The translations under genes were made by a program, and so were the position numbers. Source: an uncultured Flavobacteriaceae bacterium (GTDB taxonomy: Bacteria > Bacteroidota > Bacteroidia > Flavobacteriales > Flavobacteriaceae). From it: a DNA stretch of 61,130 nt. The stretch is taken from contig CALKFR010000031.1 of the NCBI GenBank assembly GCA_938084555.1, positions 1 to 61,130 on the forward strand, given 5' to 3'. The notes beneath the pieces were generated by a model. That model worked only from the letters and a program-made list of their open reading frames with translations. It did not search any database and had not been told where the DNA came from. Each line of letters opens with the position of its first letter. The stretch's first letter is position 1. This document shows positions 10,219 to 60,198 of the stretch, piece by piece.

Positions 10219-10247
10219 AAAAGCGTTTCGATATTCGAAACGCTTTT
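10219..10247 (-). terminator. Intrinsic terminator after gldKLMN
   Basis: A perfect 13-base inverted repeat with a 3-base loop (arms 10219-10231 and 10235-10247) just beyond the gldN stop. On the - strand the second arm ends in a run of T, the expected layout for Rho-independent termination of the gld operon. Confidence 0.85.
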
Positions 10248-25126: not shown

Positions 25127-25165
25127 AATAAATCCCAATCTTCTAGATTGGGATTTATTTTTTTT
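25127..25165 (+). terminator. Intrinsic terminator after groEL
   Basis: A perfect 14-base inverted repeat (arms 25127-25140 and 25146-25159, 5-base loop) followed by a T run. It also lies at the end of the convergent lipoprotein gene, and its A-rich 5' flank could support some termination on the - strand. Confidence 0.9.
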
Positions 25166-29153: not shown

Positions 29154-29207
29154 ATGAACAAAAAATTAAAAAAATACTTTAATTTTATACTTTTAAATTT
29201 TACATAA
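29154..29207 (+). CDS. Possible 17-codon leader ORF upstream of the fRMsr-like gene
   Basis: ATG at 29154 opens a 17-codon frame rich in Lys, Phe and Leu whose TAA overlaps the ATG of the next gene as TAATG (29205-29209). An AGGA-like purine stretch lies about 8 bases before it, unusual in this AT-rich, SD-poor genome. It could couple translation to the downstream gene. The composition is that expected of random AT-rich sequence, so the call is weak. Confidence 0.2.
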   Translation: MNKKLKKYFNFILLNFT

Positions 29208-29662
29208 TGATAAACACCAGCAAGATTAAAGACTTTGTAAATAATGTTATTTCATCACCTAAATCTACAGGTGAAAAACAACAAATTATTTGTGATTTCT
29301 TAAAGAATGAAGTCTCTTATTATGATTGGGTTGGTTTCTACTTTAAAAATGGAGAAAATGAAGAATTAAAGTTAGCTGAATTTGCTGGAGAGCCAACAGA
29401 GCACACTATTATACCTTTTGGAAAAGGAATTTGCGGTCAAGTAGCCGTTACTAATCAAAATTTTGTTGTTCAAGATGTAAGTGAACAAAGTAATTATATT
29501 TCTTGTGGCTGGAAAGTAAAATCAGAAATTGTAATACCAATTATGGTGAGAAATGTAAATATTGGCCAAATTGATATTGATTCTCATACTTCTAAACCAT
29601 TCTCTGAAGCTGATGAAGAATTGTTAATGTTTATATGCAATAAAATAGCCACTTTATATTAA
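29207..29662 (+). CDS. GAF-domain protein, free methionine-(R)-sulfoxide reductase-like
   Basis: A 151-residue single GAF domain of the fRMsr (YebR) family, which reduces free methionine-R-sulfoxide. IPFGKGICGQVA holds C76 and SNYISC holds C100, 24 residues apart as in yeast and E. coli enzymes, where these act as catalytic and resolving cysteines. The third conserved cysteine, 10 residues before the first, is replaced by H66. DIDSHTSKPFSEADEE near the C-terminus is typical of the family. Activity is therefore plausible but a cyclic-nucleotide-free sensor role cannot be excluded. It is separated from purH by a weak hairpin and a promoter. Confidence 0.8.
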   Translation: MINTSKIKDFVNNVISSPKSTGEKQQIICDFLKNEVSYYDWVGFYFKNGENEELKLAEFAGEPTEHTIIPFGKGICGQVAVTNQNFVVQDVSEQSNYISCGWKVKSEIVIPIMVRNVNIGQIDIDSHTSKPFSEADEELLMFICNKIATLY

Positions 29663-29670
29663 ACTGAAAC

Positions 29671-29693
29671 TTCAACTTCAACCAGAAGTTGAA
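29671..29693 (+). terminator. Possible terminator after fRMsr-like gene
   Basis: A 9-base inverted repeat (29671-29679 and 29685-29693) with a 5-base loop shortly after the stop codon. The following bases are AT-rich but lack a clean T run, so termination may be weak. Confidence 0.4.
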
Positions 29694-29787
29694 TTACTAT
29701 TTTATAGATATATAAACTTCAAAATCCTAAAGAAAAAAATTTATTCACAATTGTAGTATAAGTTTCTTTATTTCTAATGAGATTCTG

Positions 29788-29818
29788 TTGTTTTAGCAAT
29801 TCACATTTAGTAGATTTG
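29788..29818 (+). promoter_or_regulatory. purH promoter (TTG-N20-TAGATTTG)
   Basis: TTG at 29788-29790 and TAGATTTG at 29811-29818 with a 20-base spacer, a good match to the Bacteroidota promoter pattern. Predicted start is near 29825, giving a leader of about 15 bases. The 3' half of the -7 element lies inside a large palindrome. Confidence 0.6.
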
Positions 29819-29841
29819 TGTGCTTAACTAAGCACACAAAT
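29814..29841. promoter_or_regulatory. Perfect palindrome over purH promoter and start codon
   Basis: Two 13-base arms, 29814-29826 and 29829-29841, form a perfect inverted repeat around the dinucleotide AC. The core half-site is TTTGTGTGCTTA. It begins in the TTTG of the -7 element, covers the predicted transcription start and ends on the second base of the purH ATG (29840-29842). This is the layout of an operator that a dimeric repressor would occupy. Alternatively, a transcript starting upstream would fold it into a hairpin that hides the start codon. Confidence 0.6.
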
Positions 29842-31366
29842 GAGCAATCTAAAAATTATCCAATCTGCATTAATTTCAGTATTTCACAAAAATGGTTTAA
29901 AGCCAATAGTTGAGGAGTTACATAAAAATAATGTTACCATCTTCTCAACTGGAGGAACAGAAAAATTTATCAAAGAATTAGGAATTCCCGTTACACCTGT
30001 TGAGGATGTTACCTCTTATCCTTCAATTTTAGGGGGTAGAGTAAAAACATTACATCCAAAAGTTTTTGGAGGCATTTTAAACAGGCAAGATCATCAGGGA
30101 GATATTTCAGAGATGAAAGCATATGAAATTCCACAAATTGATCTTGTAATTGTAGATTTGTATCCTTTTGAAAAAACAGTAGCCTCTAATGCAAGTGAAC
30201 AAGATATTGTTGAAAAAATAGATATTGGTGGCATCTCATTAATTAGAGCCTCTGCAAAAAACTTTAAAGATACGTTTACCATATCTTCAATGGATCAATA
30301 TGAGGAATTCTTAACACTTTATAAAGCCAATAATGGTGCTTCGCACTTAGCTGAAAGAAAAAAATTCGCTGCAAAATCATTCAACATATCTTCACATTAT
30401 GATACCGCAATTTTTAATTATTTTAATGAAGATGAAATTGCATATAAAGTTAGTGAAACTGTTTCTAAAACTTTACGTTATGGAGAAAATCCTCATCAAA
30501 AAGGGTATTTCTTTGGGGATTTAGATGCCATGTTTGAAAAAGTTCATGGAAAAGAATTAAGCTACAACAATCTATTAGATATTGATGCTGCAGTAAATTT
30601 AATGGGAGAGTTTACAGGTGAATCTCCAACATTCGCTATTTTAAAACACAACAATGCATGTGGTTTTGCTCAGAGAGAAACTATTTCTAATGCCTATATA
30701 GATGCTCTAGCAGGTGATCCTGTATCTGCTTTTGGAGGAGTCCTCATCTCTAACACTAGGATTGATAAAATAACTGCTACTGAAATTCATAAATTATTTT
30801 GTGAGGTTGTTATTGCTCCTTCTTTTGATGAAGAGGCTTTACTTATTTTAAAAGGAAAGAAAAACCGTGTTCTTTTAATACAAAAAAGTGTAGAGCTTCC
30901 AAATCAAATCGTTAGAACTTCACTAAACGGGATACTAGTTCAAGATAGAGATACCATAACTGACTGTTTGGAAGATTTAACATATGCAACAAATTGTAAA
31001 CCTTCCAATAACGAACTAGATGATTTATTATTTGCTTCAAAAATATGCAAGCATACAAAATCAAATACTATAGTACTAGTAAAAAATAAACAGTTATATG
31101 CTAGTGGAACAGGTCAAACAAGTAGAGTTGATGCTTTAAATCAAGCTATAGAAAAGGCAAATAATTTTGGTTTTAATTTAGATGGGGCTTCGATGGCTAG
31201 TGATGCATTTTTCCCTTTTCCAGATTGTGTAGAAATTGCAAATAATGCAGGAATTAAGAATGTGATTCAACCAGGTGGCTCTATAAAAGACCAACTAAGC
31301 ATTGATTATTGCAATAAAAATAACGTAGCAATGGTTATGACTGGAACCAGACATTTTAAACATTAA
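29840..31366 (+). CDS. purH: Bifunctional AICAR transformylase / IMP cyclohydrolase
   Basis: A 508-residue enzyme for the last two steps of de novo purine synthesis: formylation of AICAR with 10-formyl-THF and cyclisation to IMP. Residues 1 to about 190 are the MGS-like cyclohydrolase domain (STGGTEKFIKELG, LGGRVKTLHPKVFGGIL). The remainder is the transformylase, with LRYGENPHQKG, the LKHNNACG motif near 267-274 and SDAFFPFPD near the C-terminus, ending in MTGTRHFKH. Its promoter overlaps a strong palindrome, suggesting specific transcriptional control. Confidence 0.98.
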   Translation: MSNLKIIQSALISVFHKNGLKPIVEELHKNNVTIFSTGGTEKFIKELGIPVTPVEDVTSYPSILGGRVKTLHPKVFGGILNRQDHQGDISEMKAYEIPQIDLVIVDLYPFEKTVASNASEQDIVEKIDIGGISLIRASAKNFKDTFTISSMDQYEEFLTLYKANNGASHLAERKKFAAKSFNISSHYDTAIFNYFNEDEIAYKVSETVSKTLRYGENPHQKGYFFGDLDAMFEKVHGKELSYNNLLDIDAAVNLMGEFTGESPTFAILKHNNACGFAQRETISNAYIDALAGDPVSAFGGVLISNTRIDKITATEIHKLFCEVVIAPSFDEEALLILKGKKNRVLLIQKSVELPNQIVRTSLNGILVQDRDTITDCLEDLTYATNCKPSNNELDDLLFASKICKHTKSNTIVLVKNKQLYASGTGQTSRVDALNQAIEKANNFGFNLDGASMASDAFFPFPDCVEIANNAGIKNVIQPGGSIKDQLSIDYCNKNNVAMVMTGTRHFKH

Positions 31367-31441: not shown

Positions 31442-32470
31442 ATGGGCTTTTTTGATTTCATGACTGAAGACATTGCCATTGACTTAGGAACGGCAAATAC
31501 ACTTATTATCCACAATGGAAAAGTTGTGGTTGATAGTCCGTCTATAGTTGCAAGAGATCGAGTTAGCGGAAGAATTATAGCTACTGGTACAGAAGCTAAT
31601 TTAATGCAAGGAAAAACTCATGAAAATATTAAAACTATTCGCCCACTAAAAGATGGAGTAATAGCTGATTTTCAAGCCTCTGAAGAAATGATTAAAGAGT
31701 TTGTAAAAAAAATTCCTGCCTTTCGAAAAAAGTTTTTCCCTCCTTCACTAAGGATGGTTATTTGTATTCCATCAGGAATTACTGAAGTTGAAAAAAGAGC
31801 TGTTCAAGATTCAGCGAGACATATGAATGCTAAGGAGATTTACCTTATATACGAACCTATGGCAGCTGCTATTGGTGTTGGAATTGATATCATGGAACCC
31901 AAAGGTAATATGATTATTGATATTGGAGGTGGAACTACAGAAATTGCAGTAGTAGCTCTTGCAGGTATAGTCTGTGATCAATCAGTGAAAGTTGCTGGTG
32001 ATTTATTTACGAATGACATCATGTATTACATGCGAACTCAACACAATTTATATGTAGGAGAAAGAACCGCTGAAAAAGTAAAAATAAATATTGGTTCGGC
32101 AACAGAAGACCTAGACAACCCTCCAGAAGACATGCTGGTTCAAGGTAGAGATTTATTAAGCGGAAAGCCAAAACAAGTTCAAATCTCACATAGAGAGATT
32201 GCAAAAGCTTTGGATAAATCAATTCTTAGAATTGAAGACGCAGTAATGGAAACATTATCTAAAACACCTCCAGAACTAGCTGCCGATATATACAATACAG
32301 GAATATATTTAGCAGGTGGTGGCTCTATGCTAAGAGGTTTAGATAAAAGACTTTCTAGAAAAACAGATTTACCTGTTTATATTGCTGAAGACCCCTTAAG
32401 AGCAGTAGTAAGAGGTACTGGAATAGCTTTAAAAGAGCTAGATAAATATAAAAATGTCTTAATGAAATAA
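31442..32470 (+). CDS. mreB: Rod-shape-determining actin homologue MreB
   Basis: A 342-residue bacterial actin. Phosphate 1 motif IDLGTANTLI near residues 13-22, phosphate 2 motif MIIDIGGGTTEIAVV near 158-172, and adenosine motif YLAGGGSMLRGL near 289-300 are all present. MreB filaments on the inner membrane guide the elongation machinery for lateral wall synthesis. It heads the mreB-mreC-mreD-mrdA-rodA cluster and has its own promoter. Confidence 0.99.
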   Translation: MGFFDFMTEDIAIDLGTANTLIIHNGKVVVDSPSIVARDRVSGRIIATGTEANLMQGKTHENIKTIRPLKDGVIADFQASEEMIKEFVKKIPAFRKKFFPPSLRMVICIPSGITEVEKRAVQDSARHMNAKEIYLIYEPMAAAIGVGIDIMEPKGNMIIDIGGGTTEIAVVALAGIVCDQSVKVAGDLFTNDIMYYMRTQHNLYVGERTAEKVKINIGSATEDLDNPPEDMLVQGRDLLSGKPKQVQISHREIAKALDKSILRIEDAVMETLSKTPPELAADIYNTGIYLAGGGSMLRGLDKRLSRKTDLPVYIAEDPLRAVVRGTGIALKELDKYKNVLMK

Positions 32471-36958: not shown

Positions 36959-36970
36959 TTTTTAACACCA

Positions 36971-37012
36971 AAAAAAACGCTCTATTTTTCATCAAAATAG
37001 AGCGTTTTTTTT
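36971..37012. terminator. Bidirectional intrinsic terminator between rodA and rpsT
   Basis: A 12-base perfect stem (36977-36988 and 36994-37005) with a 5-base loop, preceded by an A run and followed by a T run, so it works on both strands. It ends rodA (+) and rpsT (-). Confidence 0.9.
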
Positions 37013-48659: not shown

Positions 48660-48695
48660 AAAGTCTGTTTAAAATTTAAACAGACTTTCTTTTTT
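48660..48695 (+). terminator. Intrinsic terminator after fbaA
   Basis: An 11-base perfect stem (48660-48670 and 48678-48688; the arms can extend inward) followed by CTTTTTT. It ends the fbaA transcript. Confidence 0.88.
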
Positions 48696-49763: not shown

Positions 49764-49771
49764 TACATTTG
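49764..49771 (+). promoter_or_regulatory. Putative rpsO -7 element
   Basis: TACATTTG, predicting a start near 49776-49778 and a leader of about 50 bases that begins with a hairpin. No convincing TTG -33. Confidence 0.48.
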
Positions 49772-49774
49772 CCA

Positions 49775-49797
49775 CGTCAGTAAAAAAATTACTGATG
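49775..49797 (+). promoter_or_regulatory. Hairpin at the 5' end of the rpsO leader
   Basis: A 9-pair stem (49775-49783 with 49789-49797, one G-U pair) and an A5 loop, located at or just after the predicted transcription start. S15 in several bacteria represses its own message by binding leader structures, so this is a candidate regulatory element. Confidence 0.4.
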
Positions 49798-49826
49798 TAC
49801 ATAAAAATCATTTAAATAATATTGGC

Positions 49827-50096
49827 ATGTATTTGACAAAAGAAGTAAAAGAATCAATCTTCGAAAAACACGGTAATAGTAAAACTAACACCGGTTCAGC
49901 AGAAGGACAAATTGCATTATTCACGCACAGAATTAACCACTTAACAGGACACTTAAAACAAAATCGTAAAGATTTTAATACAGAGCGTTCTCTAGTAAAG
50001 ATGGTTGGAAAGCGAAGAAGTCTTTTAGACTACTTAAAGAAAAAAGACATTTCAAGATATCGTGCAATTATCAAAGAGTTAGGAATTAGAAAATAA
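49827..50096 (+). CDS. rpsO: 30S ribosomal protein S15
   Basis: An 89-residue primary 16S rRNA-binding protein. Typical motifs: HGNSKTNTGSAEGQIALFTHRINHLTGHLK and VGKRRSLLDYLKKKDISRY (quoted in part: TGSAEGQIALFTHRI, GKRRSLLDYL). The start at ATG 49827 gives the normal length; the frame is open 22 codons upstream but through the leader hairpin. It is followed by a terminator and then pnp, the common rpsO-pnp order. Confidence 0.98.
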   Translation: MYLTKEVKESIFEKHGNSKTNTGSAEGQIALFTHRINHLTGHLKQNRKDFNTERSLVKMVGKRRSLLDYLKKKDISRYRAIIKELGIRK

Positions 50097-50106
50097 TACC
50101 TACACA

Positions 50107-50133
50107 AAAGAGGTAGCTTTTGCTACCTCTTTT
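50107..50133 (+). terminator. Intrinsic terminator between rpsO and pnp
   Basis: An 11-base perfect stem (50107-50117 and 50122-50132) with a TTTT loop and short T tail. It may partly separate rpsO from pnp. Confidence 0.85.
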
Positions 50134-52502: not shown

Positions 52503-52534
52503 AATCGCCAAAAGTTTTTTTGGCGATTTTTTTG
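52503..52534 (+). terminator. Intrinsic terminator after pnp
   Basis: An 11-base perfect stem (52503-52513 and 52518-52528) with a 4-base loop, followed by a T run. Confidence 0.9.
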
Positions 52535-58114: not shown

Positions 58115-58145
58115 TAAAAAACCTCACTAATTAAATTAGTGAGGT
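58115..58145 (-). terminator. Intrinsic terminator after clpX
   Basis: An 11-base perfect stem (58121-58131 and 58135-58145); on the - strand it is followed by TTTTTT. It ends the clpP-clpX transcript. Confidence 0.88.
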
Positions 58146-60164: not shown

Positions 60165-60198
60165 AGCAAAAAAAACTTCTCTGAGAGAAGTTTTTTTT
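60165..60198 (-). terminator. Intrinsic terminator after tig
   Basis: An 11-base stem (60171-60181 and 60185-60195) with a 3-base loop, flanked on both sides by A/T runs. It lies between the tig stop and clpP and works for tig on the - strand. Confidence 0.85.

Follow-up and report, generated by a model that had tools for sequence, protein, structure and literature searches.

A palindrome across the purH promoter and start codon of Flavobacteriaceae as a candidate fold-back hairpin against read-through messages

Introduction

Fold-back in read-through RNA protects IS10 and IS50 against transposase made from chance transcription, and at Escherichia coli pyrC a hairpin at the 5′ end of the message controls translation while the start position switches by 1-3 nt. 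In the published passages on bacteriophage T4 gene e (and likewise soc, 49 and I-TevI), the start region of a long early RNA is covered by a fold-back and this RNA is translated poorly, while a short, well-translated RNA arises from a promoter that lies within the DNA encoding the 5′ strand (PMC3014915). As for purH, the pfl (purH-associated) riboswitch candidate can precede the gene, according to the section of the source that deals with it (PMC2864571).

Here we describe a perfect inverted repeat at purH of an uncultured Flavobacteriaceae bacterium, found in a stretch of 61,130 nt of contig CALKFR010000031.1 that was analysed as a whole and is referred to below as the window. The palindrome would encode an RNA hairpin with its 5′ strand over the purH core promoter and its 3′ strand over the translation start. 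The locus resembles T4 gene e in that the 3′ strand covers the translation start in the predicted pairing. The -7 box overlaps the left arm, and promoter RNA would lack the 5′ strand if transcription begins at the predicted start site. The locus differs in being a chromosomal purine gene whose 5′ strand takes in a -7 box of the Bacteroidota type, with no Shine-Dalgarno site. As in the IS10/IS50 case, a translation start would be hidden in RNA reading in from outside, although purH is a resident metabolic gene, and as in pyrC, a nucleotide-synthesis gene would carry a 5′-end hairpin, although at purH the pairing includes bases several nucleotides upstream of the expected start. Unlike the pfl candidate, which is a complex motif, the purH element is one short stem with no match at the Rfam gathering score. 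The literature passages retrieved on Flavobacter purH leaders or hairpins and on Bacteroidetes start-codon hairpins in read-through contain no recognisable description of it, their purH passages dealing with the pfl motif and with a motif of a neighbouring smtA gene; within the literature searched the element appears to be new, while its general kind, the fold-back hairpin, is already known.

Results and Discussion

A perfect palindrome spans the purH core promoter and start codon

The features of the locus are as follows.

29207..29662, + strand: GAF-domain gene (Pfam GAF), co-directional and upstream of purH, presumed source of read-through RNA
29671..29693, + strand: terminator-like stem-loop in the gap between the GAF gene and purH, 9 pairs, tail TTACTATTTT
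29788..29790, + strand: possible -33 element, TTG, 20 nt upstream of the -7 box, after a consensus from published work
29811..29818, + strand: -7 box TAGATTTG of the purH promoter, recognised by sequence and by like boxes in relatives' leaders
29814..29826, + strand: left arm (5′ strand of the hairpin), lying across part of the -7 box and the expected start site
29823, + strand: expected transcription start (+1), predicted by the -12 to -5 rule
29826..29829, + strand: loop AACU of the predicted hairpin, from RNA folding
29829..29841, + strand: right arm, 3′ strand of the hairpin, extending into the purH ATG
29840..31366, + strand: purH (Pfam AICARFT_IMPCHas and MGS)
31442-32470: mreB, downstream of purH

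The arm at 29814-29826 (ATTTGTGTGCTTA) is the exact reverse complement of the arm at 29829-29841 (TAAGCACACAAAT), the two being separated by AC at 29827-29828, and the repeat begins within the -7 box and ends inside the purH ATG (29840-29842). An earlier, sequence-only reading of this DNA had described the same 13-base arms and spacer and had placed the repeat on the control signals of purH, and both points are confirmed, with -7 box and ATG overlapped. Its judgement that such a repeat is unlikely by chance also holds, as perfect inverted repeats with arms of at least 13 and a spacer of up to 8 averaged 0.05 per window in 20 first-order Markov simulations. Palindromy by itself is not unique to the purH site within the window, which holds nine perfect inverted repeats with arms of at least 11 versus 0.55 in simulation. 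The eight others, with arms of 11-19 (10219-10247, 25127-25159, 36970-37012, 48660-48688, 50106-50133, 52503-52528, 58121-58145 and 60168-60198), are perhaps terminators.

In the passages that define it, the Flavobacterium -7 element occupies positions -12 to -5 (PMC6847099, PMC9723704), which places the predicted +1 at 29823 and gives a leader of 17 nt. A -7-like box (TAnnTTTG, or with a TTTA or TTCG ending) is found 10-50 nt before the ATG in 239 of 259 purH leaders.

Predicted folding separates read-through from promoter RNA

In the predicted fold of a 61-nt RNA around the site, 29814-29825 pairs with 29830-29841 and the pairing covers the A and U of the purH AUG, at -17.8 kcal/mol (z -4.74). 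An RNA from 29823 has no stable predicted fold (-0.6), and an RNA from 29822 has a 4-bp 5′ stem (-3.1 in all). At 20 C, the predicted cost of freeing positions -12 to +3 is 13.5 kcal/mol in read-through RNA versus 1.9 in promoter RNA. Since the left arm starts within the -7 box and ahead of the expected +1, only RNA running in from upstream should carry both arms. Of the suggestions of the sequence-only reading, the one that fits best is that a transcript initiated further upstream would conceal the purH start codon in a hairpin. Rfam 15 yields no family at gathering score here, and its three weak sub-gathering matches are all on the other strand.

We propose, as a reading with about an even chance of being correct, that the element uses fold-back to silence messages reading through into this chromosomal purine gene, by analogy with phage T4 gene e. 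RNA reading in from the co-directional GAF gene would carry both strands, fold, and thereby hide the purH AUG, whereas RNA from the purH promoter would start within the 5′ strand, lack most of it, and be accessible to ribosomes. Such a device would couple purH translation to the gene's own promoter and silence read-through; the existence of read-through RNA, a +1 near 29823 and the blocked translation are what we infer in this model.

The difference between RNAs starting at 29822 and 29823 is also what would be expected of start-site switching as at E. coli pyrC, where nucleotide pools would shift the start by a few bases and hairpin pairs would be added or removed, and purine synthesis is a fitting target for it. 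We nevertheless judge switching to be very improbable, as the paired changes described below extend upstream to -5, further than a shift of a few bases would account for.

The arms are kept in close relatives

The closest named records are marine Flavobacteriaceae metagenome-assembled genomes and SCGC AAA160-P02, followed by Polaribacter and Tenacibaculum. The right arm is present in five of the seven nearest genomes by purH, the window's own included (window; G014/L043, with one G-T apposition; G010/L015; G126/L045; G105/L046), and in G130/L044 it is broken, and G161/L047 lacks it. In G105 the two arms carry a paired change, TTTGTATGCTTA / TAAGCATACAAA. At purH fourfold-degenerate sites the window differs from G105 by 0.56 and from G126 by 0.54, and by this comparison the palindrome arms are kept far better than those sites in the window clade; the rest of the ~105 nt upstream of purH is also well kept there. 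The DNA upstream of purH is near-identical in G126 (L045) and G010 (L015), yet their purH fourfold sites differ by 0.51 (G126 vs G130: 0.21), which is probably due to recombination, and on that interpretation the two genomes are not independent cases. In the GAF protein tree, G105 is grouped with the five other clade members (96/61), and one gain plus one loss (in G130) would explain the window clade on a tree whose fork is not firmly supported.

A DNA operator, bound by a dimeric repressor over the purH -7 box and start site, would suit both the near-perfect symmetry across the core promoter and the retention of the arms in five of the seven nearest genomes despite the fourfold difference between the window and G105. 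However, the exact palindrome has a single copy in its own genome (62.84% complete), and its half-site, when at most one mismatch is allowed, matches 11 times in that genome (two being the palindrome itself) against nine for the reversed control. A search for GTGTGCN{2,10}GCACAC in eight clade genomes found the core at purH only, in three of the eight, and at no other gene. Furthermore, the same letters and spacing at orthologous sites are mostly kept within the window clade and are not kept between genera, where letters and loop lengths change and the pairing stays. An operator of a purine regulon was set aside, no other copies having been found and letters and spacing changing between species; as far as tested, the palindrome does not appear to be such an operator, and a DNA operator at this site seems improbable to us. 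The sequence-only reading had proposed just such an operator for a dimeric purine regulator, to be judged by the presence of the palindrome in close relatives and of further copies near purine genes: the former was found in the five genomes and no other copy was found, and the proposal is not supported, with the half-site at control level, the core at purH only, and letters that change under a constant pairing.

The pairing recurs with other letters in other genera

Pairing at purH recurs in other Flavobacteriaceae genera with different letters and loops of 2-18 nt, the right arm mostly ending at or near the ATG. We scored 200 of 210 purH leaders by pairing 13 bases from the -7 box with the rest of the leader (L024 and L164, where no start was found, were left out), and 12 of the 200 scored at least 7, namely five from the window clade together with L167, L195, L082, L280, L285, L224 and L205. 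Outside the window clade this amounts to 7/195, against 2/176 (highest score 8) among promoter-leader pairs of other genes. These control pairs were drawn from the window itself and from members of its genus and close kin (L043-L122), with none from the KKA group defined below. This first scan is not convincing alone; the case for pairing rests on the comparison of own with swapped arms.

Ten genomes of one further genus illustrate the variety of letters: TTTGCTTGCTT/AAGTAAGCAAA in L295; TTTACGGGCT/AGCTCGTAAA in L296 (same genome as L205); TTGCGTGT/ACACGC.. in L294, L297, L298 and L300; TTTTGTGTcCTT/AAGcACGCAAAA in L301; a shorter stem in L293; and only TTTTG/CAAAA in L299 and L302. Forty more leaders were chosen by a match beginning at residue 3-8 or by large genome size, a choice made once entries of this sort had already shown hairpins, and the share of hairpins among them cannot be read as that of the family. 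They include TTTTGTGTGCTTA/TAAGCACACAAAA in L334, with the same arms as in the window around a longer loop, TTTGCGTGT/ACACGCAAA in L307-L309 and L313, TTTTGTCTGC/GCAGATAAAA in L340, TTTTACTgGCT/AGCaAGTAAAA in L324 and L326, TTGTGGG/CCCACAA in L330 and L331, and a weaker TTTTGTGC/GTACAAAA in L333, the others having shorter, different or no stems.

Paired changes reach the -5 base of the -7 box, where a change of TTTG to TTTA is matched by one from C to T in the right arm (L205/L296, L324/L326 and also L224). Among 15 hand-chosen stems, the TTT of the -7 box is constant, position 6 shows four Watson-Crick types, positions 4, 5 and 9 show two types each, and positions 7 and 8 have three mismatches. 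The -7 box thus appears to keep its letters, as a promoter must, while the other pairs change together, and the changes at -5, upstream of the expected +1, would count in favour of the fold-back reading.

A mutational by-product would leave the hairpin with no function: in quasi-palindrome correction by template switching, the leader would have been overwritten with a copy of the left arm. One such event would be enough for a perfect match, and paired changes might have arisen in concert. The right arm of the window clade does occupy a place that is CA-rich leader in G161, G025 and further relatives, as it mostly is in the other Polaribacter and Tenacibaculum leaders compared (such as GCTTAACAACACAACA at the palindrome's place). 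Against such an origin, hairpins recur at this position across several genera, their loops being 12-18 nt long and some of their pairs G-U, and the score is reached at only two of the 176 other promoter-leader pairs; we think it improbable, on a par with the operator.

Own arms pair better than swapped arms

We pooled 259 leaders for a permutation test of own against swapped arms within groups, dropping the 20 that lack a -7 box at 10-50 nt and then removing near-identical leaders, which left 139 of 239. The mean own score of these 139 non-redundant leaders is 5.04 versus 4.57 (sd 0.07) for swapped arms, a value reached in 0/500 permutations. The signal is present in the KKA group, our name for leaders outside the window's genus whose protein start resembles M...KKA (53 leaders from other genera; own 6.05 vs swapped 5.02; 0/500), and is weak in the window's genus (45 leaders; 4.75 vs 4.49; 9/500). 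The 41 other family leaders, many of them also with a GAF gene upstream, give no own-arm signal (4.06 vs 4.09; 309/500). When the first 4 or 5 bases are omitted, the KKA signal stays (0/500 each) and that of the window's genus weakens (7 and 38/500). The pairing at purH is conserved and not its letters, and the structure is well supported; as in fold-back of the T4 gene e type, the structure is kept in relatives, although it is absent in the 41 other leaders. The strand test, in which G-T as opposed to A-C appositions would mark the RNA strand, carried little information (9 G-T and 8 A-C among 23 own stems, versus 6.05 and 12.31 among 13.75 swapped stems).

Joint constraint on both arms and a stable hairpin would equally be expected of a constant or conditional brake, with transcription starting upstream of the palindrome and all purH mRNA carrying a hairpin opened by temperature, ligand or protein. 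We consider a brake unlikely: the TAnnTTTG box also occurs in hairpin-less purH leaders at the usual distance, a -7-like box being found in 239/259; its TTT is invariant in the 15 chosen stems while the pairs after it vary; and no Rfam family matches the site. For the fold-back reading, the jointly constrained pairing includes bases that promoter RNA should lack, and its simplest function would lie in RNA from further upstream.

Neighbouring genes and the case for read-through

The GAF-domain gene, a putative msrC that would encode a free-methionine-sulfoxide reductase, is co-directional with purH in most loci with enough DNA, and the distance from its stop to the purH ATG is 177 nt in the window and 92-96 nt in many relatives, including many KKA leaders. 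Of 94/139 leaders with enough upstream DNA, stems scoring at least 7 are found in 17/79 with a co-directional GAF gene, 1/11 with a divergent ABC-type gene and 0/4 others, L177 and L182 (gaps >1300 nt) being counted as co-directional though a divergent gene lies nearer to purH. This link is confounded by descent, because stem presence and neighbour orientation are both inherited.

The predicted cost difference between read-through and promoter RNA in 22 leaders with stems runs from 15.7 (L334) down to 1.4 (L330) and -0.1 (L224); 60 leaders without such a stem have a mean difference of 3.9 and a largest of 14.9. Within the KKA group, masking in read-through RNA is predicted to exceed that in promoter RNA by at least 6 kcal/mol for 12/30 leaders with a co-directional GAF gene within 220 nt vs 0/9 with a divergent gene. 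In the window's genus, the same is predicted for 3/10 with the GAF gene within 220 nt and 6/23 beyond, most of them without this stem, and 8 of those 10 leaders lack an intact stem. Several points weigh against fold-back silencing: stem-less leaders can also show a large predicted read-through cost, some stem leaders (L330 and L224) show little extra masking, and the own-arm signal is weak in the window's genus and missing from the 41 other family leaders. In the window genome, moreover, the terminator-like element upstream of the purH promoter speaks against heavy read-through.

We tentatively extend the fold-back reading, with clearly less than even confidence, to a protein-free insulator at Flavobacteriaceae purH, in which a hairpin across the core promoter would let the internal promoter decide which RNA is translated and would have been gained repeatedly with new letters, chiefly near a close co-directional gene. 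If so, the same stretch of DNA would be selected at once as promoter, pairing partner and ribosome landing site; a trick of phage T4 and of transposons would extend to a housekeeping metabolic gene in a phylum without Shine-Dalgarno sites; and crowded genes could be insulated from each other without a terminator. More generally, comparing own with swapped arms separates conserved letters from conserved pairing, and a palindrome in a promoter need not be an operator.

Other elements around purH

In the window's genus (for example L050-L122), a non-palindromic leader, GCTTAACAACACAACA, is strongly kept between the -7 box and the ATG, and possibly represents start-site and A-rich ribosome landing signals. 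A search for the leader TTTGNNNGCTTAACAA at other genes, with 30 loci examined out of a longer list, gave 11 at purH, two in a repeated element of G013, two at other gene starts (L142 and L152) and 15 without a recognised gene start or unsorted.

Further upstream, a conserved TTATTCACA was considered as a DnaA box and rejected, being the end of a small co-directional reading frame in L046 and L047; DnaA-box-like patterns in the window are at chance level (4 vs 3.68). That frame ends in ...KKIYSQF and ...KKVYSQ, respectively, with stops 84 and 86 nt before purH, and the window holds a relic ending in ...ILKKKIYSQL before a stop. The conserved TTTATTCACAA at window 29735-29752 likewise corresponds to the frame's end (..KK[IV]YSQ) in L046 and L047, only the tail being kept in the window.

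The group rich in hairpins (L167, L171, L173, L188 and L294-L302) keeps a TTTGTTGATAACC-like motif in the interval from the GAF gene to the purH promoter. Elsewhere in the window, at 49764-49829, lies an S15-Flavobacteria ribosomal protein leader (Rfam RF03161). Finally, eight genomes of the window's genus (L156-L163) carry tandem TGTTA.. motifs, TGTTAATTACT..TGTTACTATC, 20-21 nt from start to start and ~90 nt before purH. Among 39 genomes searched, these eight have the pair, once each and by coordinates always 90 nt ahead of purH; it is a possible activator site special to this gene.
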